Origin: Gammaproteobacteria bacterium
GTDB lineage: Bacteria; Pseudomonadota; Gammaproteobacteria; Ga0077554; Ga007554
Reading direction: 5' to 3'
Assembly: GCA_021731145.1 (NCBI GenBank)
Contig: JAKFXX010000008.1
Location: 1 to 64,000, forward strand
DNA length: 64,000 nucleotides
The position numbers were made by a program, and so were the translations under genes. The first letter of the stretch is position 1. Each line of letters begins with the position of its first letter. The notes beneath the pieces were generated by a model, which was not told the origin of the DNA, made no database searches, and saw only the letters and a list, made by a program, of their open reading frames with translations. Of this stretch, positions 28,382-47,168 are shown piece by piece.

Positions 28382-28392
28382 GGCGGTGACGG

Positions 28393-28476
28393 GTTACGTA
28401 TGGCAAGTGGCGAGTGATGTGAACGCGGCGGGAGAGGTTCCCGCCGCGCCACGGTTCACCGCAGGCTATACGTAAC
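28393..28476 (+). promoter_or_regulatory. long stem-loop in the first porin 3' region
   Basis: Nested inverted repeats: GTTACGTAT (28393-28401) with ATACGTAAC (28468-28476), GTGAAC (28419-28424) with GTTCAC (28454-28459), and a perfect nine-base GCGGCGGGA/TCCCGCCGC stem (28425-28433/28439-28447). It lies between the porin stop and its terminator and could stabilise the transcript end or form an sRNA. Confidence 0.5.
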
Positions 28477-28494
28477 AAAAGTAGTAAAATTCGA

Positions 28495-28526
28495 CGGGCG
28501 CCTTTATCGGGCGCCCGTTTTTTTTT
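28495..28526 (+). terminator. terminator after porin 1
   Basis: CGGGCGCC, a six-base loop and GGCGCCCG are followed by nine T residues. Confidence 0.88.
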
Positions 28527-28626
28527 GCGTCTTTTGCAGGGTGCGCCATCCCCGTGAATCTCCGTAAGGGGGCAATGAGGGGTGGTTGATGGGTATATTA
28601 TTAATTACAGTTGAGAGGGGCAATAC

Positions 28627-29927: not shown

Positions 29928-30782
29928 TTGAAAATAAATCACCAAGAACATTCGTTGCGTGGGAGAGGGCTCGTTGCCGGTGCAGTGCTGCTTATTGTCT
30001 GCGGCTCGATTTTTTTGGCTGCGGGCGGCGCGTTGGCCGGCATTTTTAACACCAAGCACAATCTCGGCAGCACGGGCGTGAACGCGGCCAGCCAATTCAG
30101 CGGCACGCGGGAGATTTGCGTGTTCTGCCATACCCCCCATGGCGGCAACGAGGCCGCTGCCGTTCCCCTCTGGAACCGCAATCTCGATCCCAATGGTTTT
30201 CAAACCTATGACCAGATGGGCACCACCACGCTCGATGCCCATGTGGAGCAGGTGGGTTCCGTATCTCTCGCGTGTCTTTCCTGTCATGACGGCACCCAGG
30301 CGATGGACTCGTTGCTTAACGAGCCGGGTTCCGGGCGGGTTGTGCCCGGCTTCAGGAGCGGCATCTGGAGCGGCCAGGCGGCCTCCGTCGGCGGCAGGAT
30401 CGCGTCACCCAGCGTTGTCACCAATTTGAGCAAGGATTTGACTAATGATCACCCGGTGGGCATCCAGTACGCGGGCGGGGGCTATTCCAATTCCAACCCC
30501 TCCGGCCCCGGTGCGGACAAGGACTTCAATCAAGCCAACACCGCGATTGTCGGCACGGAGAGGGTGTGGTGGGTAAACACCCCGGTCGAGGGCTCGCTGG
30601 CCTTCGAGAAGACCGACATGAAGCTGTACACCCGCATCGGCACGCGCGGAAAATATGCCGGCGAGCCGCAACCGTATGTCGAGTGCGCCTCGTGCCATGA
30701 TCCGCACGTCGATTACAACCCCACCTTCCTGCGCGTCGACCCCAAGGGCAGCGTGTTATGTTTGACCTGCCATGCGAAATAG
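29928..30782 (+). CDS. exported tetrahaem c-type cytochrome
   Basis: A 284-aa protein with four CxxCH haem sites: CVFCH, CLSCH, CASCH and CLTCH. A signal region (LVAGAVLLIVCGSIFLAAGGALA) sends it across the inner membrane. It begins with GIFNTKHNLGS and has ICVFCHTPHGGN followed by PLWNRNL, a motif shared with the 11-haem protein at 39878. Such CHTPHG/PLWNR cytochromes occur in extracellular electron-transfer loci. The TTG start follows ACGAGGGTGG; no nearby ATG suits the signal peptide. The 3' end overlaps the PPIase gene by 11 bases, implying translational coupling. Confidence 0.9.
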   Translation: MKINHQEHSLRGRGLVAGAVLLIVCGSIFLAAGGALAGIFNTKHNLGSTGVNAASQFSGTREICVFCHTPHGGNEAAAVPLWNRNLDPNGFQTYDQMGTTTLDAHVEQVGSVSLACLSCHDGTQAMDSLLNEPGSGRVVPGFRSGIWSGQAASVGGRIASPSVVTNLSKDLTNDHPVGIQYAGGGYSNSNPSGPGADKDFNQANTAIVGTERVWWVNTPVEGSLAFEKTDMKLYTRIGTRGKYAGEPQPYVECASCHDPHVDYNPTFLRVDPKGSVLCLTCHAK

Positions 30783-31758
30783 GGGTGGGCGCTGGCGGAC
30801 GGCGCTGATTTTAACCCTGGCCCTGGCGGGTGTTGCCGTTGCTGGCGCGCCGCCCGAGAAGGCTCAAGGAGCTGTCGATGCACAAGGAAGTGCGAGTGCC
30901 GCCAGAGGCACGACTGCAGGGATGCAGGAGGTAGAGCAACGCAAGGAGCAGTTGCCGAGGATGCCGGAAGCGGCCGCGTCGTTCGCTATAGTTGGGGGTG
31001 AAGCAATATCGCAGGAGCAGTATCATTCCGCGCTGCATGAGGGGATGCGGCGCAAGTTTTTTCATGGTACACCCTCGCGGGAACAGGTTGACGCCTACCG
31101 CCGCGAAGTAGCGCAGGGTTTGATTGAACGTGTCCTGTTGCGGCAGGAGGCGGCGCGCCGTGGTCTGGCAGGCGAAGGTCTGCTGGGGCGGCTGGAGGAG
31201 GTCGTGCGGCGCGTGCCGGAGCCGGGCGAGGAAGACGTGCGCGGTTATTACAATGCGCATCCGGACAAATTTACCGTGCCGGAGCGGTTGAGGGTATCGC
31301 TGATACTGCTCAAGGTAGAGCCTTCCGCGACAGGTGCGGCGTGGAAGGCGGCGGAGGCCGAGGCGGCACGGCTGGTTGACAGGCTGCTGAAGGCGGAGCC
31401 GCCGCGCCGGGGGGCGGAATTTGCCGAGTTGGCCCGGTTGCACTCCGGGGATGTATCCGCGAGCCGGGGCGGGGATCTGGGATATGTGCATAAGGGCATG
31501 CTGTCCGGTGAGGCGCAACAGGTGCTGGATGGCATGAAGCCGGGTGATATCTCCGCGCCGCTGTTGCTGTTGCAGGGTGTGGCGGTGTTGCGGCTGGAGG
31601 AGCGAGTGGCACCTGCATTAAGCGTTTTTGATGCCGCAAAGCCACGCGCGCGCGATTTGCTGGCAAGGGAGCGGGGGGGCGTGGCGTGGCAGGCGCTTAT
31701 CGAGCGGCTGCGCAGGGAAACGCCGGTTACAATAAGCGAAAATGATGCTGGTCCGTAA
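30772..31758 (+). CDS. exported parvulin-type peptidyl-prolyl isomerase (SurA/PpiD-like)
   Basis: A 328-aa periplasmic foldase. A short signal (ALILTLALAGVAVAGA) is followed by a low-complexity segment, a SurA-N-like helical region (YHSALHEGMRRKFFHGTPSR) and a rotamase domain (about 155-270: VPERLRVSLILLKV, FAELARLHSGDVSASRGGDL, LGYVHKGML). Dedicated PPIases accompany multihaem cytochromes in other electron-transfer loci, presumably helping export or barrel assembly. Residues about 35-68 come from a dispersed in-frame repeat (30875-30975) and interrupt the normal spacing between signal and chaperone domain. Confidence 0.88.
   Translation: MRNRGGRWRTALILTLALAGVAVAGAPPEKAQGAVDAQGSASAARGTTAGMQEVEQRKEQLPRMPEAAASFAIVGGEAISQEQYHSALHEGMRRKFFHGTPSREQVDAYRREVAQGLIERVLLRQEAARRGLAGEGLLGRLEEVVRRVPEPGEEDVRGYYNAHPDKFTVPERLRVSLILLKVEPSATGAAWKAAEAEAARLVDRLLKAEPPRRGAEFAELARLHSGDVSASRGGDLGYVHKGMLSGEAQQVLDGMKPGDISAPLLLLQGVAVLRLEERVAPALSVFDAAKPRARDLLARERGGVAWQALIERLRRETPVTISENDAGP
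30875..30975 (+). repeat. in-frame dispersed element, copy A
   Basis: This is a 101-bp GC-rich segment inside the PPIase gene. It shares TCGATGCACA and GTGCGAGTGCCGC with copy C. It also shares GGAGGTAGAGCAACGC followed by GGAGCAGTTGCCG with copy B at 39930. It stays open in the host frame, encoding the segment that ends QEVEQRKEQLPRMPEAAA. Confidence 0.65.
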
Positions 31759-31904
31759 AGCCGGCCGGAAAGAGTCTTCACCTGTATAAAAACACCCATC
31801 TTCCCTGCGCGATGCGGCGGGGCGGTGGCCGTGGTCGGGTGCTTTTTTTAATAATAATTTGAATGCTATTCAGGGGCGCGCCGTCGGCGCGGTTGGCAAT
31901 ATGA

Positions 31905-33773
31905 ATGTCACGCTTTATACATATGAGCAGATTTGACGCCAGACCTTATATGCTGGCGTTGTTTGCGCTCGTGTGGCCTTTGCGTGGCTTTGCAGTGGCG
32001 GTGGGGCCTGCTGAGGTGACGGGCAGTCTGGGCTATAACTACCGGCTGCTGAAAGGCGCTGACGATCGTGACTCGGCGAGCAATCAATTTCTGCTCAACC
32101 TGCGTGCGAACTCCTACATTTGGCAGCCCTGGTTTGCCACGGCGGAGGGCGGTCTGACCTTGACACGGGATGCTACCAATATCAGCAAAGCCAACCAGGA
32201 TAGCGGTCTTCAGGACAGTAGTTCCAATATAGCCACCGGCGAGTTCAATCTCAATCTGCTTCCGCAAAGCCGCTCGCCTTTTAGTGTGCGGTATTTGGCC
32301 AGTAATAGCCGCATCGACATGGGGAAGATCAGCAGCGCGCCGGTGACGTTTACGAACCTGGAGTTCGATACCCGCCGCCTTGAATTGCGGCAGTCCTACC
32401 TTACGGAGCAAAATGACCGTTTCTTGTTCAGATATGACACCTCGAACTGGAGTTCGGTCACCGACGGCAGCTACGACGATAGCCTGCTGGGAATGGAGAT
32501 GGATGTGCGGCGCTCGAAGCAGAATCTCCTGATCAAACTAAGTCAAGGGACTACCGAGCATTCGCTGTCCAGGCAGCGTAATGAGAATCTTATTTTTGAT
32601 CTGAGCCATTTTTACACGGCATCCTCGGCGCTACGGGTGGATACCAAGGCCAGTTATTACAATTTTGACCGGTCTTTCCGGGTGACCAGTGCCAGCGCGA
32701 CCTCTGGCAGCAGCACCAGCAATATCGCACAAGCCTCAACATTCGCGTTTTGGCGTCCCGAGGCGAGTCCGCTCTCGCTCAGCGGCGGTATGAGGGCCTT
32801 CAAGCTCGACGGCAATACCCTGCTTGATTCCAATAGCTCGCTCAATCTCAGCGGTAACCTTGGGGGATTCTATCAATATAGCAAGCGCTTGCGTTTCGAT
32901 GGCAGCGCGGCGATAACAGCCACGGACAGCAACGGCGTGGCAACACGGATCTCGCGGCAGCAAGTGGGGGTGTTGTATCAGTCGGATATTGTGGATCTTT
33001 TCAAGGGAACCGGCACATATCAATGGTATGCTACGGGATCGGCCGACAATCAGACTGACAAGGCGGATAATAAATTGCCGCAGAAAAACGAAAGTCGGCA
33101 ATCGGTCTATTCCACTTTGGCGCACAACGGCCAGAAAACATGGCTTGTTAACGAAACATCTTCAGTGAGGTTGAGTCTGGGGCAGTCACTTAACGGGTTT
33201 TACCGCTTTGGCGGCAGCGATACGATTACTGCCCAGGCGGATCATCAAGGAACGGTGGTGAATCGCCAGTTCGCGGGAATTGCATCCGCCAACACCCGGC
33301 TGGATCATACCGGCACGGCGGCCTGGAGCCAATCGGACAGCGGCACCTCGACCGTGCAGACGACCCTGTCGGATTCGCGTAGTCTGTCCGATACCAAGGA
33401 TAGCCAGCAGCTTGCCAACTTTCAGATAATGCGGACCCAGCCCATCGACCGCTTGAGTTTTTTGTCGGGTAATCTTACTGTGCAACATGTACGTCAGGAT
33501 TTTCCCGGCATAGGGCTGGCTTCCAATATTACAACGGCAACAGGTAGAATTGATTATCAGCATTCCAGCGTGTTTGGTGTCACCAATCTGCGCTTCCTGT
33601 CCAACCTGTTTGTCTCCAGGTCGGCCACGCAGCACGGGATTGATCGCTCTGAATGGGATAACCGCCTGGATTATGCGATTGGCCTGCTGGATGCAAGTTT
33701 GAGCTTGCGTTTAATACAGATCGACGGGCAGAATTCAAATTTGCTATTGTTCAGGATTGCGCGTCGTTTTTGA
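31905..33773 (+). CDS. outer-membrane beta-barrel protein of the cytochrome locus
   Basis: A 622-aa protein with a signal peptide (MLALFALVWPLRGFAVA, cleavage before VGPAEV). The body is long alternating polar/hydrophobic strands typical of large barrels (SLGYNYRLL, FNLNLLPQSRSPFSVRYLA, LELRQSYLTEQNDRFLFRYD). It ends in NLLLFRIARRF with a terminal phenylalanine, the BAM-recognition signature. No haem motif. Size and position among multihaem cytochromes fit the porin of a porin-cytochrome conduit, but no direct MtrB/OmbB similarity can be claimed by eye; PEP-CTERM-associated barrels look similar. Starts at 31905 and 31923 are both possible and neither has a strong ribosome-binding site. Confidence 0.8.
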   Translation: MSRFIHMSRFDARPYMLALFALVWPLRGFAVAVGPAEVTGSLGYNYRLLKGADDRDSASNQFLLNLRANSYIWQPWFATAEGGLTLTRDATNISKANQDSGLQDSSSNIATGEFNLNLLPQSRSPFSVRYLASNSRIDMGKISSAPVTFTNLEFDTRRLELRQSYLTEQNDRFLFRYDTSNWSSVTDGSYDDSLLGMEMDVRRSKQNLLIKLSQGTTEHSLSRQRNENLIFDLSHFYTASSALRVDTKASYYNFDRSFRVTSASATSGSSTSNIAQASTFAFWRPEASPLSLSGGMRAFKLDGNTLLDSNSSLNLSGNLGGFYQYSKRLRFDGSAAITATDSNGVATRISRQQVGVLYQSDIVDLFKGTGTYQWYATGSADNQTDKADNKLPQKNESRQSVYSTLAHNGQKTWLVNETSSVRLSLGQSLNGFYRFGGSDTITAQADHQGTVVNRQFAGIASANTRLDHTGTAAWSQSDSGTSTVQTTLSDSRSLSDTKDSQQLANFQIMRTQPIDRLSFLSGNLTVQHVRQDFPGIGLASNITTATGRIDYQHSSVFGVTNLRFLSNLFVSRSATQHGIDRSEWDNRLDYAIGLLDASLSLRLIQIDGQNSNLLLFRIARRF

Positions 33774-33854
33774 CGTGTTGTGTTGTGCGGTTGGGATATG
33801 GCCGCGAAAGTTGTTGTCAAACGATTTGATAATTAAAGATGGGAGGGTAGCGCA

Positions 33855-34319
33855 ATGTTTGTAACCAAGAGTCGTTCCGTGTGGGGCGCCGCTGTATTGG
33901 GTGTTGCCGCATGGTTTGCAGTTTTAATGGCGCCAACGCCCGCCCAGGCGGAGTATGGTGATGTTGTAATCAACAATTATGCGGATGCTGCGGGTATGCG
34001 CCCGGCAGTCTTCTCGCACTGGTTTCACCGCGTCCGTTTTCGCTGCAAGGTGTGCCATGCCGATTTGGGCTTCCAGTTCAAGGCGGGCGGCAATAAGATA
34101 ACCATGGCCAAGATCATCGATGGCAAATTCTGTGGCGCCTGCCACAATGGCGAAATTGCCTGGTCGGTGGAAAACTGTGGCATGTGTCATTCCGGCGTCC
34201 CCGGTATGCCGACGCACTTCCATGGCAGCACAGTCCAGACGCTGGTGGCGCCCGCATATCAACCGATGACGGCACCTTCCGCTCCCGCTGCGCCCCAAAC
34301 ACCTGCTCCTAAAAAGTGA
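33855..34319 (+). CDS. trihaem c7-type cytochrome 1
   Basis: A 154-aa periplasmic protein. A signal peptide ends PTPAQA. Three haem sites (CKVCH, CGACH, CGMCH) come in the c7-type triheme layout HWFHRVRFRCKVCH, MAKIIDGKFCGACH and ENCGMCH, with upstream histidines as distal ligands. A proline/alanine-rich tail (APSAPAAPQTPAPKK) would be flexible and could tether it to the cell envelope. It precedes the related gene at 34339 by 19 bases, so both are probably in one operon. Likely role: periplasmic electron carrier between inner-membrane quinol oxidation and the outer surface (inference). Confidence 0.9.
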   Translation: MFVTKSRSVWGAAVLGVAAWFAVLMAPTPAQAEYGDVVINNYADAAGMRPAVFSHWFHRVRFRCKVCHADLGFQFKAGGNKITMAKIIDGKFCGACHNGEIAWSVENCGMCHSGVPGMPTHFHGSTVQTLVAPAYQPMTAPSAPAAPQTPAPKK

Positions 34320-34338
34320 TGGATAGAGGAAAAAGAAG

Positions 34339-35079
34339 ATGAATCGGCATAATAAAACGCTTTTTGTGACATTTGTTCTGTCGCTACTGGTGACGGGGTC
34401 TGCATGCAGTTCGCAGGCTCAGGGGGTGGCTCGGCCTGACGGCTCGGTGCCGGTGCAAGACCTTTCTTATGCGCCGAGCTATAAGCCGGTAGACGAGGTT
34501 GCCCAATCCGATGCGCAGGTGATACATATCGCCGAAGTCGCTGATATCAATAGCTTCAACCGTAATCTGAAGAAACGGCCATTCCAGTTGCCGCCTGCGG
34601 AAGACGGTCTGCGTGATCCTCAAAATGAGGCCACCCACATCCTGGCGGCACCCAAGCCGGCATTCGAGGGGCTTCCTACCACTGAGTTTGGTAATCGCGT
34701 TGACTGGGTGAAGACGCTCGATGAGAAAAAGGTCAGGCCGCGCTGGGACCGTGAAGATCCCGATGCGGAACCGTTCGTGATGGATCTTGATATCGTACGC
34801 CCGGTGAAGGCCTCGGTGCCGGATGTGGTGTTCCCGCACCGGCAGCATACGGAGTGGTTGTTCTGCTCCAACTGCCATCCCGCGATCTTTATTCCGCAGA
34901 AGGGTGCTAACCAGATCAATATGTCCGCCATTCTGTTAGGCCAGAAGTGTGGTGTATGTCACGGCAAGGTGGCCTTCCCGATTACCACCAAGTCGTGCAA
35001 AAAGTGCCATTCCAAGCCCAAGCCGGATGATTGGAAGCCGCCATTGAGCGAGACTACCCTCAAAAATCCCTGGAAGTGA
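34339..35079 (+). CDS. trihaem c7-type cytochrome 2 with N-terminal extension
   Basis: A 246-aa exported cytochrome. The N-terminus (LFVTFVLSLLVTGSACSS) may be a lipoprotein signal. Residues 30-160 are a haem-free extension with EDGLRDPQNEATHIL and RVDWVKTLDEKKVRPRW, and the C-terminal third carries FPHRQHTEWLFCSNCHPAIF, CGVCH and CKKCH. The trihaem domain and the extension are both shared with the gene at 36881, so these two are paralogues. AGAGGAAAAAGAAG precedes the ATG. A strong terminator follows at 35091. Confidence 0.9.
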   Translation: MNRHNKTLFVTFVLSLLVTGSACSSQAQGVARPDGSVPVQDLSYAPSYKPVDEVAQSDAQVIHIAEVADINSFNRNLKKRPFQLPPAEDGLRDPQNEATHILAAPKPAFEGLPTTEFGNRVDWVKTLDEKKVRPRWDREDPDAEPFVMDLDIVRPVKASVPDVVFPHRQHTEWLFCSNCHPAIFIPQKGANQINMSAILLGQKCGVCHGKVAFPITTKSCKKCHSKPKPDDWKPPLSETTLKNPWK

Positions 35080-35090
35080 AGAAGTAAAAG

Positions 35091-35134
35091 TGAGTGGTGG
35101 ATCATGAAATTTACGGTCCACCACTCATGTTTTT
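35091..35134 (+). terminator. terminator after the trihaem pair
   Basis: TGAGTGGTGGA (35091-35101) pairs perfectly with TCCACCACTCA (35117-35127), followed by TGTTTTT. It separates the first part of the cytochrome locus from the cupredoxin gene. Confidence 0.85.
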
Positions 35135-35379
35135 GTGGTGAATTAAAGCAAGTGGCATTCCGAAAAAATCTTTCTTTGCCTGGGGTTTTTTGGGAATGGA
35201 AAACATTTGGATGCGGTTTTTCCGTGTCCCGGCTGGTTTCCTGGGGTTGCCATTTGATCCTTGTGTGCCGCTAACCTGAGTCTTGGCAGCCGCCCGTTGT
35301 GGATGGCTGCTGAGCGCGGGATTTTTTTGGTTAGGTAACCAGTGATGTACCGTCTTTTTTGCAGGTGAGAGCAGTTACG
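35135..35379 (+). promoter_or_regulatory. leader region of the cupredoxin gene with nested stems
   Basis: A non-coding leader of about 245 bases. CTAACC (35271-35276) pairs with GGTTAG (35329-35334), enclosing GCAGCC (35286-35291) with GGCTGC (35305-35310). A T-run follows the inner stem, so an attenuator is conceivable. It does not match the c-di-GMP riboswitch core that I would recognise. Confidence 0.3.
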
Positions 35380-36720
35380 ATGAAAAAATTTGCAAATCAA
35401 CAAATTGTATCTATGATCCGAGCGCTTGCGTTTTGTGTCGCAGGATACCAAGGGACGTTATGGGCCGCGCCGCAATCTGCGGCTGCCGAGCAGCGGGAGT
35501 TTGTGGTCACGTCTGCGTCCAAGGACAGTACCCATCCATTCTATGGACAGGGAAGCAAGATGGGGTTGGTCGTTGACGGCGTGCAGGGCAAAACCCTGGT
35601 TTTGACGCGCGGGGTGGAATATACCTTCAACGTCAATACGGGTCCGATGCACGACTTTTATTTTTCAAGCAATCCGATTGGGCAGGGTGCCAGTACGGTC
35701 ACCGAAGGCGTGACAGGCCAATTTACCTATCGGGGCGCGGTGGAGTTTGCGCCGGGCGCATCCACACCGGAAGTTGTGTATTACCAATGCCGCAATCATA
35801 AAAATATGGGCGGCAAAATATTCATCATAGATAAAGGGCAAGCCGCGCCAGTGGGGGCATCTTCTCCTGCGGCTCCAGCCCCTGTCGAGGCCGAGGGATC
35901 TACGCCACCACCCGTTGTCACGCCCGCTGCCGTGGAGGCCCAGGTCAAGCAGAAAATTGACTTTGCCAACATGCTGGTGAATGTGTCCAAGGGTGCGCAG
36001 CGTATTTCCGCAAGCAGTAACGCGCAGGCCAAGGAAATGCTGGGGTCGGCGCGCGGTCATCTTGATGCGTCGCGGACTGCCCTGGCTGCGGGGGATGTTG
36101 GCAAGGCGCAGACGGAAGTTGACGAGTCGCTGAAGTTGGTGAGTGCGGCAGCACGTATGGTGCCCAGCGATTCGCAGGAAGTGACTGATCCTAAATTCAA
36201 GTATAACGAGCTGCTCGATGCGATAAAGACGTTTGAGTCATCGTATAAGCAGCATCGTGACAGATTGGCCGCCAAGAAAGGGAATGCCGCAAACACACTG
36301 GACACGAAAAAATTCCAGGATGCCCTTGTCCAGGCCCGCAGCCATGCCGATGCTGGTCATTATGACGAGGCGAACAAGTCGTTGATGGGCGCGCAAAGAA
36401 TGGTCACGAGCGCGCTGGGCGCGTTGCTTAATGCAGAGACGGTGGTGTACGACAAGAGCTTCGCCACGCCCGCCGAGGAATATGAGTATGAGCTGGCACG
36501 TTACAAGAGCTATGAAGAGCTGATCCCGATTGCCATAGAGCAAAGAAATCCCCCGGCTACTACGCTGGAAAAGATGCGTGAGTTGGCGGAAAGGGCCAAG
36601 GGTATGCACGGAGAGGCTGTACAGCAGGCCACCAAGCAGGATTATGCGACCGCTATCGGCAATCTCCAGGACGCTACGATGCAGCTTCAGCGGGCGTTAA
36701 TGATTGCCGGGGTGAATTAG
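35380..36720 (+). CDS. blue-copper (cupredoxin) domain fused to a helical repeat region
   Basis: A 446-aa exported protein. After a signal ending GTLWAAP, residues about 35-155 form a cupredoxin domain: TGPMHDFYFS supplies a histidine and VVYYQCRNHKNMGG supplies Cys, His and Met in a C-x2-H-x2-M loop, completing type 1 copper ligands. A proline/alanine linker (about 160-190) leads to about 250 residues of amphipathic helices (KIDFANMLVNVSKGAQRIS, ARSHADAGHYDEANKSLMGA, DYATAIGNLQDATMQLQRAL) that look TPR-like. A soluble copper electron carrier tethered to a scaffold would suit the locus (inference). The ATG at 35380 is preferred to the one at 35359. Confidence 0.82.
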   Translation: MKKFANQQIVSMIRALAFCVAGYQGTLWAAPQSAAAEQREFVVTSASKDSTHPFYGQGSKMGLVVDGVQGKTLVLTRGVEYTFNVNTGPMHDFYFSSNPIGQGASTVTEGVTGQFTYRGAVEFAPGASTPEVVYYQCRNHKNMGGKIFIIDKGQAAPVGASSPAAPAPVEAEGSTPPPVVTPAAVEAQVKQKIDFANMLVNVSKGAQRISASSNAQAKEMLGSARGHLDASRTALAAGDVGKAQTEVDESLKLVSAAARMVPSDSQEVTDPKFKYNELLDAIKTFESSYKQHRDRLAAKKGNAANTLDTKKFQDALVQARSHADAGHYDEANKSLMGAQRMVTSALGALLNAETVVYDKSFATPAEEYEYELARYKSYEELIPIAIEQRNPPATTLEKMRELAERAKGMHGEAVQQATKQDYATAIGNLQDATMQLQRALMIAGVN

Positions 36721-36880
36721 TTGTGGTGACTGGCTTGGGGGCGTTTCATTAAGATGTGACGACCGAGCGCCGCTGGTAGCCGGATTGCAGTAAGGGCTGA
36801 GAAGCTGTGGCAACTAAAGAAAAAAGCCACTGATTCGGCGTTCTGGATGGCTGGGGAGGTTTTGCGGGTTTGGGGTGGCG

Positions 36881-37495
36881 ATGAGCGAAAAGAAAAATTT
36901 CCAATTCAATCGTCGGGTCGGGCGGGTGTTCTGCGCGCGCGTTTGGGCCGCAATGGCGGCGCTGCTGTGTCTGGTTCTAATGGAGGGTGCTGCCGCATCG
37001 GAGTTGATATGGTCCAAAGGACGGCATTTCCAGACTCAAGGCGAGGCGGTGCCGCTGGCGGAAGATGGTATTCGTGATCCAACCAATCCGGCAATCAAGG
37101 TGTTGGCTGACCCTGCCGAGGCATTGGCGGATTTTCCCAGAGATTCAAAAGGCATCATCGACTGGGTAAAGGCGCTCGATGACGGCTTGATCGATCCACG
37201 CAAGGGACTCAATGGTGAAGTTCAAATGTTCCCGGTGGATTTTGATATTATCTTCACGAACACTGGTTCGATGCCCAATGTCCGTTTTCCCCATCGGCAG
37301 CACACTGAATGGCTGACGTGCGCCAACTGCCATCCGTTGATTTTTCTTCCCCAGAAGGGGGGGAATCCCGTTAATATGGCGGCGATTATCCAAGGCCGGT
37401 ATTGCGGTGTGTGCCACGGCAAGGTCGCCTTTCCGCCAACCCTGAATTGTGGACGATGTCACTCCGTTCCCCGCCAAACCGCCGGTTTTCGCTGA
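36881..37495 (+). CDS. trihaem c7-type cytochrome 3
   Basis: A 204-aa exported protein paralogous to the one at 34339. A signal peptide (VWAAMAALLCLVLMEGAAA) is followed by the shared leader EDGIRDPTNPAIKVL and the IIDWVKALDDG segment. Three haem sites then occur in FPHRQHTEWLTCANCHPLIF, GRYCGVCHGKVAFPP and CGRCH. A GTG six bases upstream is an alternative start. Its 3' end overlaps the NHL lipoprotein gene by 40 bases. Confidence 0.9.
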   Translation: MSEKKNFQFNRRVGRVFCARVWAAMAALLCLVLMEGAAASELIWSKGRHFQTQGEAVPLAEDGIRDPTNPAIKVLADPAEALADFPRDSKGIIDWVKALDDGLIDPRKGLNGEVQMFPVDFDIIFTNTGSMPNVRFPHRQHTEWLTCANCHPLIFLPQKGGNPVNMAAIIQGRYCGVCHGKVAFPPTLNCGRCHSVPRQTAGFR

Positions 37496-38799
37496 CAGCG
37501 CTGGGTGTGATCCTGGCGCTGGCGCAGTCCGGCTGCTCCTCTCTGGGTAAGCCTGCGCCTGCGCCTGCGCCGCTGGTCAAGCAATCACAGGCTGTAAATC
37601 AGGCTCAATCTGCCCAGGCCGCTGGCGCGCCCGTTTCCCCGGTGGTTGTTCAAGCGTCTCCGCAAGACGAGGTTCTGCTGGCACCAGCGCCTGTGACGGA
37701 AATGCCTGCGCCGCTTCCCTTATCCGCCTTATCCGCTAGTCCAGATGTAGTTGCACCAGTAGAGCCAACTACGGCGCCAGTTGATCTTCTTCCTGGGCAG
37801 GACAAGTCAAATCAGCCTGTGGTGGAACGGAAAGGCGCGCCTGCCGTTGATGTGATTCCGGCGCCGCCTGCTGTGCCGGTTTCCGTGCCAGTGGCGCAAG
37901 GCACCGGTGTCGCCACAGTGCTGCCCACCCAGCCCTCCGAACTTTTGCAGCCTTTGGAGATTATTCGCGGCGGACCGGAAGGTAATTTTATCACAGGTGT
38001 CAGGGAACTGAACTTTGTACGGCCCATCGCCGTCGCGGCGCGCGGGAATGCCCTTTTTGTGATGGATGCCGGCCAGGTCAAGCTGTTCAGGTATGAGCGT
38101 GCTACCGGCAGGTTGATGCCCGTCATGAATTTGAATGGTGTGATGACGGGGGATGGGGCGGATATCTATGTTGCTCGTGACCTGTCGTTTTATATCGCTG
38201 ATACCTTTGGTGCACGGGTATTGCAGTTTGACCGGAACGGCCGTCTGCTGCGTATCTTCAGTAATCCGCTGAACATGACCCGGCCGGTCTCCGTGACTGT
38301 GGATGAGGCAAGTGGACGTGTGTTCGTGGCGGATGGGGTATATGATTACGTGTTGATATTTAACAGCACGGGCCAGTTGATCGGCTCCATGGGCGGTCGC
38401 GGCGGTGATCCTGGGGAATTCTTGAATATCACAGCCATGGCACGGGGGCCTGATGGTTTTTATGTCACGGCGCGCGTTGGGCAGCATATTCAGGTGTTGG
38501 GGGAGGATGGTCAATACACTTATTCTCTTCCGCAGGAGGGGATAATCTTTCCGACTGCGATTGCCGTTGATCAGGACAACCGTGTCTTTGTCAGCGATTT
38601 CAGCGATAGCAGCATCAAGGTTTATGAACAGGGACGCCTGGTCGGGAGTGTTGGCCATAATGGCTCAGACCTCGGTCAATTCCGACATATCACCGATTTG
38701 TGGCTTGATGAGGGCCTGCTATTTGTTGCTGACAGCCTGAATGGGCGCGTGCAGATAATGCGTGTTGTGCCTGGCGCCAAGGGCGAAAACAATAATTAA
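37456..38799 (+). CDS. NHL beta-propeller lipoprotein 1
   Basis: A 447-aa protein. The ATG at 37456 gives a lipoprotein signal (ALGVILALAQSGC, lipobox QSGC). Residues 25-165 are a proline/alanine/valine-rich spacer, then NHL-type propeller repeats run to the end (VAVDQDNRVFVSDFSDSSIK, LWLDEGLLFVADSLNGRVQI, REFNRNG-like blades). NHL proteins recur next to multihaem cytochromes in electron-transfer loci and may act as surface scaffolds. The long spacer would lift the propeller off the membrane. The start lies inside the preceding cytochrome gene, and the stop overlaps the next start as TAATG. Confidence 0.88.
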   Translation: MSLRSPPNRRFSLTALGVILALAQSGCSSLGKPAPAPAPLVKQSQAVNQAQSAQAAGAPVSPVVVQASPQDEVLLAPAPVTEMPAPLPLSALSASPDVVAPVEPTTAPVDLLPGQDKSNQPVVERKGAPAVDVIPAPPAVPVSVPVAQGTGVATVLPTQPSELLQPLEIIRGGPEGNFITGVRELNFVRPIAVAARGNALFVMDAGQVKLFRYERATGRLMPVMNLNGVMTGDGADIYVARDLSFYIADTFGARVLQFDRNGRLLRIFSNPLNMTRPVSVTVDEASGRVFVADGVYDYVLIFNSTGQLIGSMGGRGGDPGEFLNITAMARGPDGFYVTARVGQHIQVLGEDGQYTYSLPQEGIIFPTAIAVDQDNRVFVSDFSDSSIKVYEQGRLVGSVGHNGSDLGQFRHITDLWLDEGLLFVADSLNGRVQIMRVVPGAKGENNN

Positions 38800-39881
38800 T
38801 GGTGGCCTGTTTGCAGCGTTGTTGTCTTGGTGTCGTGTTGATGGCTTTTGCCTTGTTGACGGGCTGCGCCGAATCGCGCTCGGTATTGCGCTATCAGGCA
38901 GAAGGCACGCAGGCCATTGTGTGGCCCTCTGCCCCGGAGACGCCCCGCTACCGCTATGTTGGCGAGTTGACGGGCGAGGAGAATATAAAGACTGAGGAGG
39001 GCGGGGGCATTGGTGCCCTTGGGTTGAAGGGCTTGAAGTGGCTGGTCGGATTGTTTTCGGACCAGCGCCAGGCCGTGATATTGCAACGTCCGCAGGCTGG
39101 TGTGGTGGATGATGGCGGCAGAATTTATGTTACCGATGTCAGCCGGCAGGCGGTTTATGTGTTTGACGAGAAGGCGGGTAAGCTCCATGTATGGGAAATG
39201 GCGCTGGACAATACTCGTTTCGAGGCGCCTATTGGTATTGCGTTAGGTGCGAACGGTGAGATTTTGGTGGCCGATTCCTCGCTGGGCAGAGTGGTACGCC
39301 TTAATAGGGAGGGTGTACCTGTCGGCAGTTTTGGCAAGGGCGTGTTGAAACACCCGACAGGGCTGGCGCGTGATGCGGCGCAGGGCAGAATCTATGTGGC
39401 GGATACCCATGAGCATCGGATCAAGGTATTCGATGACGCAGGGAATCTGCTGGACACCTTCGGCAGCGGCGAGCGTCACGAGGGCCAGAACGGGTTTAAT
39501 TCACCGACTCACCTGACGTTTGCCAATGGCAAGCTGTACGTTGCGGATACGCTGAACGCGCGCATCCAGGTGCTTGCTCCGGACGGCAAGGTGTTGCGCA
39601 TGTTTGGCCGACGTGGCCTGTTTCTCGGCGACATAACGCGCCCCAAGGGCGTGGCGGTCGATGGTGCCGGCAATGTGTATGTCGTAGAATCTTATTACGA
39701 TCATTTGCTGGTATTTAATGATGAGGGTGAGCTGCTGCTGCCGATCGGTGGGGGGGGTAGCGGCGTGGGGGAATTTTATTTGCCTGCGGGGGTCTGGACC
39801 GATCAGCGCCAGCGGGTATATGTCGCAGATATGTTTAACGGGCGTATTGTGATCTTTGAGTATCTGGGGGGAGGGGCATGA
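38799..39881 (+). CDS. NHL beta-propeller lipoprotein 2
   Basis: A 360-aa lipoprotein (VLMAFALLTGC, lipobox LTGC). NHL/six-bladed propeller repeats run from about residue 60: GGRIYVTDVSRQAVYVFDEK, LGANGEILVADSSLGRVVRL, GRIYVADTHEHRIKVFDDAG and RVYVADMFNGRIVIF. It lacks the long spacer of its neighbour. It starts one base inside the previous stop and ends four bases inside the 11-haem gene, so all three are tightly coupled. Confidence 0.9.
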   Translation: MVACLQRCCLGVVLMAFALLTGCAESRSVLRYQAEGTQAIVWPSAPETPRYRYVGELTGEENIKTEEGGGIGALGLKGLKWLVGLFSDQRQAVILQRPQAGVVDDGGRIYVTDVSRQAVYVFDEKAGKLHVWEMALDNTRFEAPIGIALGANGEILVADSSLGRVVRLNREGVPVGSFGKGVLKHPTGLARDAAQGRIYVADTHEHRIKVFDDAGNLLDTFGSGERHEGQNGFNSPTHLTFANGKLYVADTLNARIQVLAPDGKVLRMFGRRGLFLGDITRPKGVAVDGAGNVYVVESYYDHLLVFNDEGELLLPIGGGGSGVGEFYLPAGVWTDQRQRVYVADMFNGRIVIFEYLGGGA

Positions 39882-42739
39882 CCGTTTTGCCGGAAACAAA
39901 ACGGGACAGCCAAAGGCTGCCCGAAGGACACGGATGTGCGAGTGCCGGTCGCTTCCGGCATCCTGCCTCTGGCGACACTTGTGCATCCCTGCACGTCGCA
40001 GGCGCAGGCGCAGGCGACGGCATGGATGCCGGAGGTAGAGCAACGCAGGGAGCAGTTGCCGGATGCGCAGGAGCGGCCGAAGGACGAGGGCCATGGAAGG
40101 ATCACGTCACCAAGCTGCGCGCGGTTGCCGCGATGCTGCTGTGTGCGGGTGCGCTGCTGCTGGGTGCCGTGAGCGCCCAGGCCGAGCGTGTGGCCGACAT
40201 ACGTAATACCAAGCATAATTTCTCGTCGACGGTGATACCGGTATTGCCGGAAGGCGTCACGCGCGATGCCTTTGCCACCAATGAGTCCCAGATCTGCGCT
40301 TTCTGCCATACTCCTCATGGCGCCACTCTTGCCCCCAGGACTCCACTGTGGAACCGCAAACTGTCAGGGGCGACCTATATTCCGTATACCTCATCATCCA
40401 TGGACGCGACCGATATCGGCCAGCCGACCGGCAAGTCCAAGTTGTGCCTCTCCTGCCACGACGGCACATTGGCGCTGGGTTCGGTCAATGTGTTGAATCG
40501 TGTTGAAAGACCGATCATTGACTTTACCGGCCCCGGCGTTGGACGGGACGACAAAATTCCCGAGGGACGTGGACGGCATACCGGCTACACGCGTCTGCTG
40601 GGCACGGATCTGACCAATGACCATCCTATCTCGTTCACCTACGACAGCGCCCAGGCGGCACGCGATGGTGAGCTGTATGATCCGGCGATGGTGGCGCACC
40701 TCGGCACCCGCACGCCGGGTGTCAAGCCCACCCTGCCGCTGGAGGACAACAAGGTCGAGTGCGTGAGTTGTCATGACCCGCATCTGCGCGATACGTCCGG
40801 CGACAACATCAAGTTCCTGCGTGTCAACCGCCTCCAGCAACAGCCGCCGACTGACAAGCGCTTCAACGAAAAGAGCGACATCATCTGCCTGGGTTGCCAC
40901 GACAAGGCGGGTTGGGTGGGTTCTGCCCATGCCCATCCTGCTGTGGCCAATGAGCGTTATGCGGATGCGGCGGGCAAGTTGCGTGATTTCCCCAGAAATC
41001 TGCCGGTATGGCAGGCGGCGTGCCTGAACTGTCACGACCCGCATACCGTGCAGGGGTCGCGTCGCCTGCTGCGTGAAGGTACGGATGGACCGACGATGGT
41101 GGGTGTGGATGGCGCCAAATTCAAGCAGGGCGGCAACCCGGCTATCGAAGAAACCTGCTATGCCTGTCATTCCACGGATGGCGGTACCCTGCAGGGGCAG
41201 GGGGTGAAACCGGGTTTCGAGGTGCCGGATATCAAAACCGATTTCACCACCATGGCGCGTCATATGCCGATTTCCAGCCGCGATCAGCCTGCCGGGCGCG
41301 AAAGGCATGATATCGGCTCTGGCACCGATGCGCAGGCTAATGGCCCTGGTGGGGGCAAGGATTTCTTCGAATCCCCAGCCAACTTGGGTAAGGCGAGTGC
41401 TGTGAACAAGAAGGGCGAGGTGGGTGGCCTGCAAAATCGTCACGCGGAATGCACGGACTGCCATAATCCGCACCGCGTGACCAAAAACCGTATTTTCAAC
41501 GCCGACACGTCAATTCCCGATACGGAGGGTACGCATAATCACACGGCGGCGCAGATCGCCAATAACCCTGAGCGTCACCACACCAATATTGCCTCGGGTG
41601 TGCTGCGCGGCATCACCGGCGTGGAGCCGGGCGGCTGGCCGAGCACCGCATTTGGCAGCGAACCTACAACTTTCGTGGTCAAGCGCGGTGATCCCGGCGT
41701 GGGCGGCAGCACCGATGTAAACGCACCGTATGTGACGCGCGAATATCAGGTGTGCATGAAGTGTCACTCCAATTACGGTTTCGACAAGCCACCCATGCTG
41801 GGGTCTTTTGCCGGGGGGACTCCGCCGGGGACCAATGCGATGATTCAATACACCAACATGGGTATGGAGTACCAGTCACCGGATGACCACAAGGGCGAGG
41901 GTACGTCACCCACTCCCAGCGGGGCGTACAAAGGCCCGGTTGCGGGGCAGGGGTACACAGTGGACTTTCAGACCGATAACCACCGTTCCTGGCATCCGGC
42001 ATTGAAGGATACCGGGCGTACCATTGATGTGAGACGGGTGGACAGCCCGAATATCTGGCGCGAACCTTTCAATGCAGGCGTAGGCATACAGACCATGTAT
42101 TGCACCGATTGCCATGGCTCAACCACGGCTCCGGGTACTACGGTGCCCGATGGTGGTGAGCAGGGCAATGTGTGGGGGCCGCATGGCTCCAACAGCGACT
42201 TCCTCTTGAAAGGCCCCTGGGATGATCAGACCGGCGAAAACAAGCAGGATCACCTGTGTTTCAAGTGCCACAACTATGATTATTACGGCAAAAAATTCCC
42301 GCTGGGGCCGATCCAGGACAGTCAGGTGCTCAAGAGCGGTTTTGCCAGAAACCCAAATGATGCGTCAGGTTTCGGCTGCCTGGCTGCCCAGCGCGCCAAT
42401 CTGCACACTGGTCATGCGCAGGTGGTACAGAATTTCCGTTGTACATATTGCCATGTCGCCGTGCCGCATGGCTGGAAGAACAAGAACTTCCTGGTCAACC
42501 TGAATGATGTTGGTTTGGAAGCAGGCCTGCCGGCAGGCACCCAAATGCGCAACAACACCACGGCGCGTTTTTACAATGGGCCTTATTACAACGGCTCCGT
42601 GCTAAAGGTGGTGAATTTCAGGCGCAGTGGTGAGTGGACGCCACAAAACTGTGGGTCTGCGGGTATGCCTGGCAATGGCGCGCGCGGGATCAGTTGGATG
42701 AACGGTAGTGGCGGTGAGACGTGTAGCAACTTGCCATGA
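39878..42739 (+). CDS. exported 11-haem c-type cytochrome
   Basis: A 953-aa protein with eleven CxxCH sites: CAFCH, CLSCH, CVSCH, CLGCH, CLNCH, CYACH, CTDCH, CMKCH, CTDCH, CFKCH and CTYCH. The mature part starts VADIRNTKHNFSS and has ICAFCHTPHGAT with PLWNRKL, matching the tetrahaem protein at 29928. The signal peptide (AVAAMLLCAGALLLGAVSAQA) is preceded by about 80 residues encoded by an inserted repeat (39930-40076). No other suitable start with a charged n-region is seen nearer than the ATG at 39878, which has GGGGGAGGGG upstream. Likely secreted or surface-exposed terminal electron carrier, possibly filament-forming (inference). Confidence 0.88.
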   Translation: MTVLPETKRDSQRLPEGHGCASAGRFRHPASGDTCASLHVAGAGAGDGMDAGGRATQGAVAGCAGAAEGRGPWKDHVTKLRAVAAMLLCAGALLLGAVSAQAERVADIRNTKHNFSSTVIPVLPEGVTRDAFATNESQICAFCHTPHGATLAPRTPLWNRKLSGATYIPYTSSSMDATDIGQPTGKSKLCLSCHDGTLALGSVNVLNRVERPIIDFTGPGVGRDDKIPEGRGRHTGYTRLLGTDLTNDHPISFTYDSAQAARDGELYDPAMVAHLGTRTPGVKPTLPLEDNKVECVSCHDPHLRDTSGDNIKFLRVNRLQQQPPTDKRFNEKSDIICLGCHDKAGWVGSAHAHPAVANERYADAAGKLRDFPRNLPVWQAACLNCHDPHTVQGSRRLLREGTDGPTMVGVDGAKFKQGGNPAIEETCYACHSTDGGTLQGQGVKPGFEVPDIKTDFTTMARHMPISSRDQPAGRERHDIGSGTDAQANGPGGGKDFFESPANLGKASAVNKKGEVGGLQNRHAECTDCHNPHRVTKNRIFNADTSIPDTEGTHNHTAAQIANNPERHHTNIASGVLRGITGVEPGGWPSTAFGSEPTTFVVKRGDPGVGGSTDVNAPYVTREYQVCMKCHSNYGFDKPPMLGSFAGGTPPGTNAMIQYTNMGMEYQSPDDHKGEGTSPTPSGAYKGPVAGQGYTVDFQTDNHRSWHPALKDTGRTIDVRRVDSPNIWREPFNAGVGIQTMYCTDCHGSTTAPGTTVPDGGEQGNVWGPHGSNSDFLLKGPWDDQTGENKQDHLCFKCHNYDYYGKKFPLGPIQDSQVLKSGFARNPNDASGFGCLAAQRANLHTGHAQVVQNFRCTYCHVAVPHGWKNKNFLVNLNDVGLEAGLPAGTQMRNNTTARFYNGPYYNGSVLKVVNFRRSGEWTPQNCGSAGMPGNGARGISWMNGSGGETCSNLP
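39930..40076 (+). repeat. in-frame dispersed element, copy B
   Basis: A 147-bp GC-rich segment flanked by the perfect direct repeat CCGAAGGAC (39921-39929 and 40077-40085). The start GGATGTGCGAGTGCCG and the end GGATGCGCAGGAGCGG match copies C and D. GGTAGAGCAACGC and GGAGCAGTTGCCG match copy A. Element plus duplication is 156 bases, a multiple of three. Confidence 0.7.
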
Positions 42740-43878
42740 TTCTCAAGATTCACGCGCTGGGTTCCGTCCGCTTGGCACTGCTGGGTATGGTACTGCTGGC
42801 CATAGGCGCGGCCTTGAGTTACAACAACCCGGTGAGCACCCCGGTGTGGGTTCTGGTGGTGCCCTTGGCGTTTTTGGCGATTAATCTGCTGGCCGCCATC
42901 GCCACCAATCCACGTATCAATCGCCGTGGCGGCTTGTTGGTTTTTCATATCGGCCTGCTTGCCATTATCGTGCTGGCAGGCATCGGACGCCTGACCCATC
43001 TGGATGCGCAACTGGAAATTACCGAGGGTAGCGCGTTTTCCCCCCAGGACTTGACCGAGGTGAACAAGGGGCCGTTTCACTTCGGCGCATTGGATCAAAT
43101 AGCCTTTGTGCAGGGTTCCTATACGGTGGAATATGCTGCAGGGATGGTGCGTGGCCTTACCCACAGCCAGGTGTTGATGCCGGATGAGCGCGGCAGGTTG
43201 GTGACCAAGGTGGTGGGCGATGATCGTCCCCTGGTGCTGGAGGGATACCGCTTCTACACCACATTTAACAAGGGCTTCGCCCCGGTGCTGACGTGGTTGC
43301 CTGATCCGGCAATTGCTCCCGGCATTGCTCTACCTTCGATGCACACGGAGGTGCGAGTGCCGCGGGCGCAGGATGCGCAGGAGCGGCCTGCATCCGTGCA
43401 GTCGGCTGCGCCGGGCGAGGCTATCACGGGTACAGTTCACATGCCCTCTTATCCGCTTTTTGAATATAAACAGGATAGTGCCTGGACGCCGCCAGGCGGC
43501 AAGGAGATCAAGCTCTGGTTACGACTCAAGACCGGATTGCGCGAGGATGCTCCCTGGGTGCTGGACGGTAAAGATGCCAGCGGTGTGCTGGTGGTCAATG
43601 CTGGCGCGCGGCGGGTTGAATTACAGCCGGGAGAGACGGTCCAACTGGAAGGTGGGCGGCTGCGCTTTGAGCGGTTGACAAGCTGGATGGGCTACAAGGT
43701 GTTTTATGATCCCACCCTGCATTGGTTGTTTGTCTCGGCGATGGTGGCGATAATAGGCTTGGGCACACACTTTTGGAGCAGGTTCGGTGTTCGATTGCCG
43801 CACACTCCTGCGCCATCAACAGGGGCGGGCTTGAAAGCCGCCCCTGCATCAGAGATTTCCGGCGGGAGGGGATTATGA
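42736..43878 (+). CDS. ResB-like cytochrome c maturation protein
   Basis: A 380-aa membrane protein of the ResB/Ccs1 family, half of the System II haem lyase. Helices occur at about 10-30, 37-58 and 73-95 (GGLLVFHIGLLAIIVLAGIG), then a large periplasmic domain (LDAQLEITEGSAF, LVLEGYRFYTTFNKGF, ELQPGETVQLEGGRLRF, WMGYKVFYDPTLHWLF) and a final helix (VSAMVAIIGLGTHFW). It is coupled to the 11-haem gene (ATGA overlap) and to resC, suggesting maturation dedicated to this locus. Residues about 196-218 carry a short copy of the dispersed in-frame repeat. Confidence 0.88.
   Translation: MILKIHALGSVRLALLGMVLLAIGAALSYNNPVSTPVWVLVVPLAFLAINLLAAIATNPRINRRGGLLVFHIGLLAIIVLAGIGRLTHLDAQLEITEGSAFSPQDLTEVNKGPFHFGALDQIAFVQGSYTVEYAAGMVRGLTHSQVLMPDERGRLVTKVVGDDRPLVLEGYRFYTTFNKGFAPVLTWLPDPAIAPGIALPSMHTEVRVPRAQDAQERPASVQSAAPGEAITGTVHMPSYPLFEYKQDSAWTPPGGKEIKLWLRLKTGLREDAPWVLDGKDASGVLVVNAGARRVELQPGETVQLEGGRLRFERLTSWMGYKVFYDPTLHWLFVSAMVAIIGLGTHFWSRFGVRLPHTPAPSTGAGLKAAPASEISGGRGL
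43322..43388 (+). repeat. in-frame dispersed element, copy C
   Basis: A 67-bp segment in the ResB-like gene. TCGATGCACACGGAGGTGCG leads into AGTGCCGC and ends GGATGCGCAGGAGCGGCC. The first 13 bases (GCATTGCTCTACC) are an inverted version of the GGTAGAGCAACGC motif of copies A and B. Confidence 0.6.
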
Positions 43879-44750
43879 GTGACGCCATTGAAAATTTCAT
43901 CGGCCCAGCCACGGAGCTTCCCTGGCTATGGGCCGGTCTTGCTGCCTATGCGCTGGCCACCTTCATTGCCGTAGTGGGGGTGATCAGAACGCAAGGGCGG
44001 GCGGTTGGCGCAATGGCGGTGAGCCGTTCGCATGAAAAGCTGGTGTTGATGATTGTGGCGACGGGCGTGGCGTTGATCGCCATAGCGCTGGCGGAGCGCT
44101 GGGTGCGCATCGGGCATGGCCCGTTCGTCAATCTGTTCGAACTGTTGATGAGCCAATTGTTCAGTCTGGGGTTGGTGTTTACGCTCGTTTATTGGCGCAT
44201 GCCGGTATTGCGGCCCAGTGCCGTGGTGGCGCTGCCGCTGATGGGGGTGCTGGGGGGTTGGGTGTTGGCCTTGCAGCCTATTGATACGCCGTTGCCTCCC
44301 ACCTATCACAATGACTGGTTATGGGCGCATGTGGGGCTGGGCAAGATTTTTCTGGCACTGAGTTTGATGGGCACGGGGCTGGCGGGTGTGATTCTGCTGC
44401 GCCACACCCAGCGCTTTGCCGCGTGGTTCCGCCAGATGCCCGCTGACGAAGTGCTTGATGGTCTGGCGTGGCGTTTTATGCTGCTCGCGTTCATCTTTCA
44501 CAGTTTGATGCTCACTGCAGGCGCGGTATGGGCGCAGGATGCGTGGGGGCGGTATTGGGCGTGGGATGCGCTGGAGACGTCATCGTTTTTGAACTGGCTG
44601 CTGCTCGGCGCAAGCATCCACGCGCGTCTGACATACCGCATTCCAATCCGTGTTGGAGCGATTGCTATCATCGCAGTCTTCATCTTTGCCTTTATTACCT
44701 ATTTCGGTACACCTTTTTACAGCGAAGCCGCGCATAAGGGCGTGATATGA
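43875..44750 (+). CDS. ResC/CcsA-like cytochrome c maturation protein
   Basis: A 291-aa integral membrane protein with about eight helices. The haem-handling tryptophan-rich motif is seen as AWGRYWAWDALETSSFLNWL, with conserved histidines in WLWAHVGLGKIFL and LAFIFHSLMLTAG. With the ResB-like partner it would export haem and attach it to CxxCH sites. The ATG at 43875 follows GGCGGGAGGGG; the ORF is open further upstream but overlaps resB heavily. It overlaps the next gene by four bases. It is distinct from the YpjD-like CcsA homologue at 13444. Confidence 0.9.
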   Translation: MSDAIENFIGPATELPWLWAGLAAYALATFIAVVGVIRTQGRAVGAMAVSRSHEKLVLMIVATGVALIAIALAERWVRIGHGPFVNLFELLMSQLFSLGLVFTLVYWRMPVLRPSAVVALPLMGVLGGWVLALQPIDTPLPPTYHNDWLWAHVGLGKIFLALSLMGTGLAGVILLRHTQRFAAWFRQMPADEVLDGLAWRFMLLAFIFHSLMLTAGAVWAQDAWGRYWAWDALETSSFLNWLLLGASIHARLTYRIPIRVGAIAIIAVFIFAFITYFGTPFYSEAAHKGVI

Positions 44751-45457
44751 ATTCTGTTGCCGTTGAACGTGATTCGGTTGAAATCACGACATCCCTTGTC
44801 TCACTGCTGCTGGTGATGGGGATGGTGGCCCTTATTGCGGGTGTGACACGCAATCCCTCCTTTGTGCCACCAGCGAAAATAAGCGAGACGCAAGTAGTTG
44901 CCGATCCCAAAAAAGATCCGCAGCTGCACGCAAAGCAGGCGCGCATGGCGCAGATCAAGACGCGCTTCGAGCAGGCGGTGGTGATGTTGCATGCAAAGCA
45001 GTATGAACACGCCGCCACTGCCTTGCACCGTGTCCTGGAGCTTTCACCCAATCTGGTCGATGCCCATGTCAATATGGGTTTTGCCTTGTTCGGGCTGAAG
45101 CGTTACAAGGAGGCCGAGAGCTTTTTCAACACGGCGACCAATTTGCGCCCCTATCAGGCCAATGCCTATTGGGGCCTTGCCGTTACCCTGGAGGAAATGG
45201 GTGACCTGCGGGGCGCGCTGGGAGCGATGCGTACCTATATCCATCTTTCTCCCCCTGAAGATCCGCTGGTGCGCAAGGCGCGTGCAGCACTGGGAGAGTG
45301 GGAATACGCGCTGGCGCGTGGGCCATTGCCCAGGGATGAAGCCGACTTCCTCGCCAGAAAAGGCAAGGAATGGACTGATCGCAACAGCCCTGCGGTGGAC
45401 ATGCCGGAGCAAAAGCAGCAAGAGGGTGCGGCGATCCGGGTGACGCCGGTGCGGTGA
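44747..45457 (+). CDS. membrane-anchored TPR protein of the cytochrome locus
   Basis: A 236-aa protein with one N-terminal helix (SLLLVMGMVALIAGVT) and a periplasmic region containing three TPR-like repeats (about 70-185: AVVMLHAKQYEHAATALHRV, DAHVNMGFALFGLKRYKEA, NAYWGLAVTLEEMGDLRGAL). Its place after ResB/ResC recalls TPR proteins such as CcmH/NrfG that present apocytochromes to the haem lyase, so an apocytochrome chaperone role is plausible (inference). Confidence 0.82.
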   Translation: MNSVAVERDSVEITTSLVSLLLVMGMVALIAGVTRNPSFVPPAKISETQVVADPKKDPQLHAKQARMAQIKTRFEQAVVMLHAKQYEHAATALHRVLELSPNLVDAHVNMGFALFGLKRYKEAESFFNTATNLRPYQANAYWGLAVTLEEMGDLRGALGAMRTYIHLSPPEDPLVRKARAALGEWEYALARGPLPRDEADFLARKGKEWTDRNSPAVDMPEQKQQEGAAIRVTPVR

Positions 45458-46998: not shown

Positions 46999-47168
46999 TG
47001 TTTAGCTGCACGCCGAAGTGCCGATAACCTCGTTGTCTTTCAAGAAATTCTTCTCACTCAATCAGGCGGTGGCGAGGGGTGTTCGAATCACCCGCTTTCT
47101 TGCCACTCCCCTTGCGGGGAGAAGTAGTCCATCCTTTCCACCGATAAATTATTAAGGCGTCCTGCGGG

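Follow-up and report, generated by a model that had tools for sequence, protein, structure and literature searches.

Within a window of 64,000 nucleotides from an uncultivated gammaproteobacterium (assembly GCA_021731145.1, contig JAKFXX010000008.1), a check of open reading frames (ORFs) returned a run of 13 genes on the + strand at positions 29928–45457, at the coordinates given in an original prediction made from the DNA letters. The gene order and haem numbers of this run equal those of the ‘undecaheme electron transfer’ cluster, uetABCDEFGHIJ, from Ca. Tenderia electrophaga, a bacterium enriched on cathodes (PMC10734462, PMC12575090). On this basis the locus is identified, at the level of sequence, as a Uet-type outer-membrane electron conduit. 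The same cluster together with cytochrome maturation genes has been named MHCR in Ca. Thiomicrorhabdus electrophagus (PMC9751133), and MHCR is reported to include genes for both system I and system II of cytochrome c maturation (PMC10734462, PMC12575090, PMC9751133). The gene set is already known and named: the combination with a cupredoxin protein, which the original prediction had not recognized, is that of the published Uet/MHCR cluster.

Organization of the locus

Pfam and NCBIfam scans of the locus identified a peptidyl-prolyl isomerase (PPIase), three c7/‘nanowire_3heme’ (TIGR04257) domains, NHL repeats, ResB, Cytochrom_C_asm (ResC) and TPR. The first gene, uetA (29928..30782), begins with TTG and encodes a tetrahaem cytochrome of the OmcE family with a signal peptide and four CXXCH motifs. 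It is followed by uetB (30772..31758), encoding a PPIC-type PPIase with a SurA-like N-terminus (Rotamase, E 8e-14), and by uetC (31905..33773), encoding a large outer-membrane beta-barrel of 28 predicted strands. Trihaem c7-type cytochromes with three CXXCH motifs each are encoded by uetD (33855..34319), uetE (34339..35079) and uetG (36881..37495, with its motifs counted over 36875–37495), the latter two with an N-terminal extension; they scored 68.1, 62.4 and 67.1 bits against TIGR04257, for which the cut-off is 40 bits. Between uetE and uetG lies a gene for a cupredoxin domain joined to a helical C-terminal part (35380..36720), which is called uetF by position only, the published Uet text examined giving no description of it. 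Two probable NHL lipoproteins are encoded by uetH (37456..38799; NHL E 2.5e-11), with a likely ATG start at 37456 and a hydrophobic N-terminus ending SGCSS, and uetI (38799..39881; NHL E 9.8e-31), with the sequence LLTGC. The undecahaem cytochrome gene uetJ (39878..42739), with 11 CXXCH motifs, is followed by genes for a ResB-like haem maturation protein (42736..43878; PF05140, E 1.7e-10), a ResC/CcsA-like haem maturation protein (43875..44750; PF01578, E 1e-23), with a likely ATG start at 43875, and a TPR protein with an N-terminal membrane segment (44747..45457; TPR_2, E 5.2e-14). Across the five cytochrome genes the CXXCH motifs sum to 4 + 3 + 3 + 3 + 11 = 24, so that motif count and domain scans confirm the 24 haem sites and the same-strand gene set originally predicted.

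A dispersed repeat, matched 46 times across the genome, is inserted in frame in the uetJ leader (39930–40090) and in uetB (30911–30976), and a 32-base match to it lies in the ResB gene (43304–43335). These insertions account for about 52 extra residues in the uetJ leader, 33 in uetB and 33 in ResB that are absent from a sister genome (G001). We take the repeat to resemble the palindromic elements found within protein-coding genes, for example in Rickettsia. Because the insertion in uetJ sits near the start of the ORF (about 39930–40090), the secreted part of UetJ starts late, after a signal peptide at about 40106–40185.

UetA belongs to the OmcE family

A phmmer search of solved structures matched UetA to 7tfs, the OmcE filament of Geobacter sulfurreducens, with E 3e-23, and a UetA profile matched the same structure with E 9e-38 in two aligned stretches covering both ends. 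UetA also matched, again at both ends, the 16-chain structure 9yuq (E 1.2e-26), described as a ‘putative multiheme cytochrome c’, and a literature search for 9yuq or ‘OmcE-like’ returned no paper. Exactly eight histidines are invariant among the 31 UetA sequences compared, four within the CXXCH motifs together with H44, H71, H175 and H260, while each remaining histidine of the window UetA is kept in at most 3 of the 31. All eight invariant histidines align with OmcE in 7tfs and, judged from this alignment, are the two predicted ligands for each of the four haems. In OmcE, one histidine ligates the haem of the adjacent subunit (PMC9473688, PMC12954529). Since all eight align with OmcE, UetA is predicted to have this intersubunit-ligating histidine, whichever of the eight it is. 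The predicted ligand set is what a filament subunit would need but is not proof of polymerization. UetA and the trihaem proteins are the best-conserved members of the module.

UetJ carries an OmcE-like domain

UetJ also matched 7tfs, with E 4.8e-20 by sequence and 4.5e-31 by profile. Its first ~285 residues, counted from position 40106, hold the same eight histidines as the UetA domain (H37, H68, H71, H118, H173, H223, H226 and H265), invariant in all 27 sequences compared. The CHTPHG/PLWNR signature, which the original prediction had noted in both UetA and UetJ, corresponds to the haem-1 region of the OmcE family. Beyond this domain 13 further non-motif histidines are invariant, enough to provide bis-histidine ligation for the other seven haems. 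Given the eight shared histidines and the match to 7tfs, UetJ reads as an OmcE-like four-haem head with a seven-haem extension, and may be an adaptor between filament and barrel. Neither a link between Uet and OmcE nor this domain reading of UetJ was found in the literature searched; because the founding description of Uet lies outside that coverage, novelty is not claimed for the OmcE link.

The barrel UetC and the cupredoxin UetF

The UetC barrel matched no Pfam or NCBIfam family. An AlphaFold2 model of UetC gave a 28-strand barrel with a mean predicted local distance difference test (pLDDT) score of 86, and a fold search with it returned outer-membrane barrels, MtrB among them. Of the VIA-align matches, the MtrB chain 6r2q_B aligned over the greatest length (450 residues, Z 15.2), although siderophore receptors were matched with higher Z. 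The fold matches to this model establish no more than that UetC is, as predicted, a large outer-membrane barrel.

In UetF, the copper ligands H91, C137, H140 and M143, with a C-x2-H-x2-M loop, are invariant in seven of seven homologues. The presence of these expected ligands upholds the cupredoxin reading, and with it the ‘blue copper’ call of the original prediction. Weak domain matches of UetF were to PF25489 (E 6e-8) and YfdX. Matches of its helical part to designed proteins were judged spurious and set aside.

Distribution and co-occurrence of the gene set

A search of 56 genomes for the barrel found it in eight relatives, and in all eight the genes are arranged identically: tetrahaem, PPIase, barrel, trihaem, trihaem, cupredoxin, trihaem, NHL, NHL, undecahaem, ResB and ResC. 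One relative has a ResC truncated where the stretch ends; in the seven that could be read further, and hence in all relatives read that far, the TPR gene comes next. Scanning of named genomes with the tetrahaem alignment gave 76 loci, 34 of which are at least 60% identical to the window tetrahaem protein. Among these 34, the set is complete from A to J and in order in 24, lacks only a recognizable B in four, and breaks off in six, where the contig is short or reaches its edge. The two counts overlap, since some named loci belong to genomes already counted among the eight relatives (L026 and G001, for example). The loci with at least 60% identity come from gammaproteobacterial metagenome-assembled genomes (MAGs), including Ca. 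Tenderia, uncultured Chromatiaceae and one labelled Biocath_Gamma; one such contig, binned as Caldilineales, is probably misassigned. A Ca. Tenderia sp. locus (L035) encodes a UetA 76% identical to that of the window and preserves the A-to-F order until its contig ends. The constant order in the eight relatives and in the 24 complete named loci indicates that the gene set is not a product of chance. The original prediction had staked itself on such recurrence, and the set does co-occur in other genomes.

Co-occurrence was also scored in an even draw of 369 Gammaproteobacteria, a sample of related species to which no probability is attached. The barrel profile matched 40 of the 369 genomes and the undecahaem profile the identical 40. 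The tetrahaem profile matched all 40 and, at much weaker scores, 12 more; in one genome (G310) the strong tetrahaem match is a fragment only, the other matches being the UetJ domain and a paralogue. With OmcE-family proteins and the barrel together in 40 of the 369 genomes, the set extends far beyond the order Tenderiales, in which it was named.

Diverged Uet versions occur in Betaproteobacteria (Dechloromonas, Polaromonas and Herbaspirillum among them), several with two tetrahaem genes. In nine betaproteobacterial loci (L063, L069, L071–L074, L077, L081 and L082) a second, diverged tetrahaem gene, 30–33% identical to the window UetA, precedes the main one, and multihaem genes on the opposite strand lie further upstream; L071 belongs to the cultivated Dechloromonas hankyongensis XY25. 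More distant loci, from Nitrospirae and others, keep the tetrahaem, NHL and 11–13-haem genes without the full set. A different cluster in Nitrosomonadales, Thiohalomonas and Thiobacillus MAGs (L086, L088 and L091) encodes 11-haem and 24-haem UetJ-like proteins, NHL and ResC, and gave no match to the Uet barrel. The genome of the window itself encodes a second OmcE-like protein (L144:10361-12749; G000:C2:25360-27748) with five CXXCH motifs, adjoining an NHL protein and a small putative barrel, and similar extra OmcE-like proteins of 250–300 residues are found in many Uet carriers.

Upstream of uetA, at 27287–29706, lies a tandem pair of related general porins. Most relatives carry one or two such genes and one (G042, locus L024) carries none; owing to this variability the porins were excluded as module members. 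The genes at 45691–47942 are conserved only within the near family. A DNA-level search of a plasmid collection found nothing similar.

Proposed mechanism and direction of electron flow

From the gene content, order and conservation, the OmcE homology, the ligand sets and the predicted barrel, we infer polymerization, localization, wiring order and direction as follows. UetA would most likely polymerize outside the cell into a haem wire, and UetJ would most likely provide the link from this wire, or directly from the solid electron source, to the UetC barrel. The trihaem cytochromes UetD, UetE and UetG, perhaps with the copper protein UetF, may relay electrons across the periplasm. UetB may aid the folding or export of the cytochromes, and the linked ResB/ResC pair may attach haems to the cytochromes of the locus. 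Electrons would probably flow inward, with minerals, iron or electrodes as their source and an autotroph's respiratory chain as their destination. The genome encodes RuBisCO, haem-copper oxidases and an NrfD-family protein, and no protein matching the NapC/NirT family, which includes CymA. Together with the enrichment of the Tenderia and Thiomicrorhabdus Uet carriers on cathodes, the RuBisCO, the oxidases and the missing NapC/NirT protein favour electron uptake on circumstantial grounds.

A Uet-type conduit of this overall design, with UetA as wire, UetJ as connector, UetC as barrel, a periplasmic relay and inward flow, is considered reasonably probable. The UetA–OmcE homology lends support to the idea of a nanowire, and it is plausible that the cell could assemble wires conducting electrons across the outer membrane. 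The original prediction of an extracellular electron-transfer locus with a filament-type cytochrome is strengthened by this homology; its opposition of filament to conduit is not retained, as the parts suggest both. A narrower proposal is possible and is offered tentatively: UetA forms an OmcE-type filament for inward flow, and the head of the UetJ adaptor mimics a subunit at its base while the seven-haem tail reaches UetC. Several points weigh against the overall Uet-type design set out above. A UetA monomer could use the same eight ligands, and the AlphaFold2 model of UetJ, built with 27 sequences, reached a mean pLDDT of only 35. The undecahaem gene of Ca. Tenderia showed no differential expression between two potentials, and autotrophy genes with an absent NapC family leave the direction unfixed.

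Alternatively, the locus may encode a porin–cytochrome conduit without a long filament, in which UetA is a surface monomer or short oligomer and UetJ, in or on UetC, crosses the membrane as in MtrCAB. The inseparability of barrel and UetJ in the 369 genomes, published drawings of Uet as a porin–cytochrome complex (PMC10734462) and the long alignment of UetC with MtrB are in keeping with such an arrangement. It is nevertheless thought rather unlikely, as the complete OmcE ligand set and high conservation of UetA fit a self-contacting subunit, and generic outer-membrane receptors outscore MtrB in Z. That the system instead runs outward, reducing extracellular acceptors as OmcE does in Geobacter, appears improbable given the cathode origin of the Tenderia and Thiomicrorhabdus carriers and a genome with RuBisCO and oxidases but lacking a NapC/NirT-family quinol dehydrogenase. 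However, OmcE serves metal oxide reduction (PMC9473688), related undecahaem cytochromes have been reported in the manganese-reducing Ca. Dechloromonas occultata (PMC13264449), and Mtr-type conduits can be reversible (PMC10734462). A role for the cytochromes as soluble periplasmic reductases or as electron stores, with no connection to the cell exterior, is highly improbable. In its favour, the haem motifs resemble cytochrome c nitrite reductase, if only distantly (E 0.09–0.4). Against it, the invariant histidines suffice for bis-histidine ligation of every UetA and UetJ haem and so give no indication of an open catalytic haem. The strict linkage to the barrel and the probable lipoproteins likewise argues against a periplasmic role, and among the homologues found here there was no characterized periplasmic reductase, the kind of relative that the original prediction had named as telling against it.

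Even in Geobacter, the route of electrons between an extracellular cytochrome filament and the cell is poorly understood (PMC10553843). If the tentative inward-nanowire proposal is true, it shows a physical coupling of a cytochrome filament to an outer-membrane conduit. An OmcE-type subunit, the same domain with seven more haems and a 28-strand barrel, encoded in fixed order, make the question of this electron route directly testable.

Comparison with known systems

Like OetABI, the locus combines a barrel with a neighbouring PPIase, a six-bladed propeller protein and multihaem cytochromes. OetABI is set apart by its description, which gives it about 16- and 26-haem cytochromes and OmcS/OmcX-type partners, whereas the haem counts here are 4, 3, 3, 3 and 11. 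PCC3 likewise combines a porin with multihaem cytochromes in Proteobacteria, but is defined by ~10–60 haems in repeats, with medians of 34 and 21 haems for its cytochromes, and a conserved five-helix inner-membrane protein; in the present module one protein exceeds 10 haems and no gene for such a membrane protein was found. MtrCAB and MtoAB share the large barrel and the multihaem cytochromes. In contrast, 28 strands are predicted here, and scanning of the locus for the decahaem MtrA/DmsE family (TIGR03508) gave 29.0 and 32.7 bits against a cut-off of 192.2.

The OmcE filament (7tfs), which has a rise near 34 Å, is built of a tetrahaem homologue of UetA and of the UetJ N-terminus, with eight haem ligands aligned. 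At 284 residues against 232, UetA exceeds OmcE in length and has additional residues between haems 2 and 3, and a second, 11-haem protein here bears the same domain; a UetA filament is proposed. Closest are Uet and MHCR, which share the order from A to J, the haem counts of 4, 3, 3, 3 and 11, the PPIase, the barrel and the two NHL proteins; MHCR is also reported to have linked system II maturation genes, as the ResB and ResC genes here. The present locus differs in its host, a different, uncultivated gammaproteobacterial family, in having ResB, ResC and TPR genes directly after uetJ, and in carrying dispersed-repeat insertions, all in frame, within uetB, the uetJ leader and ResB. The system itself is already named, and its sequences give a concrete model of how a cytochrome filament could be joined to an outer-membrane conduit.

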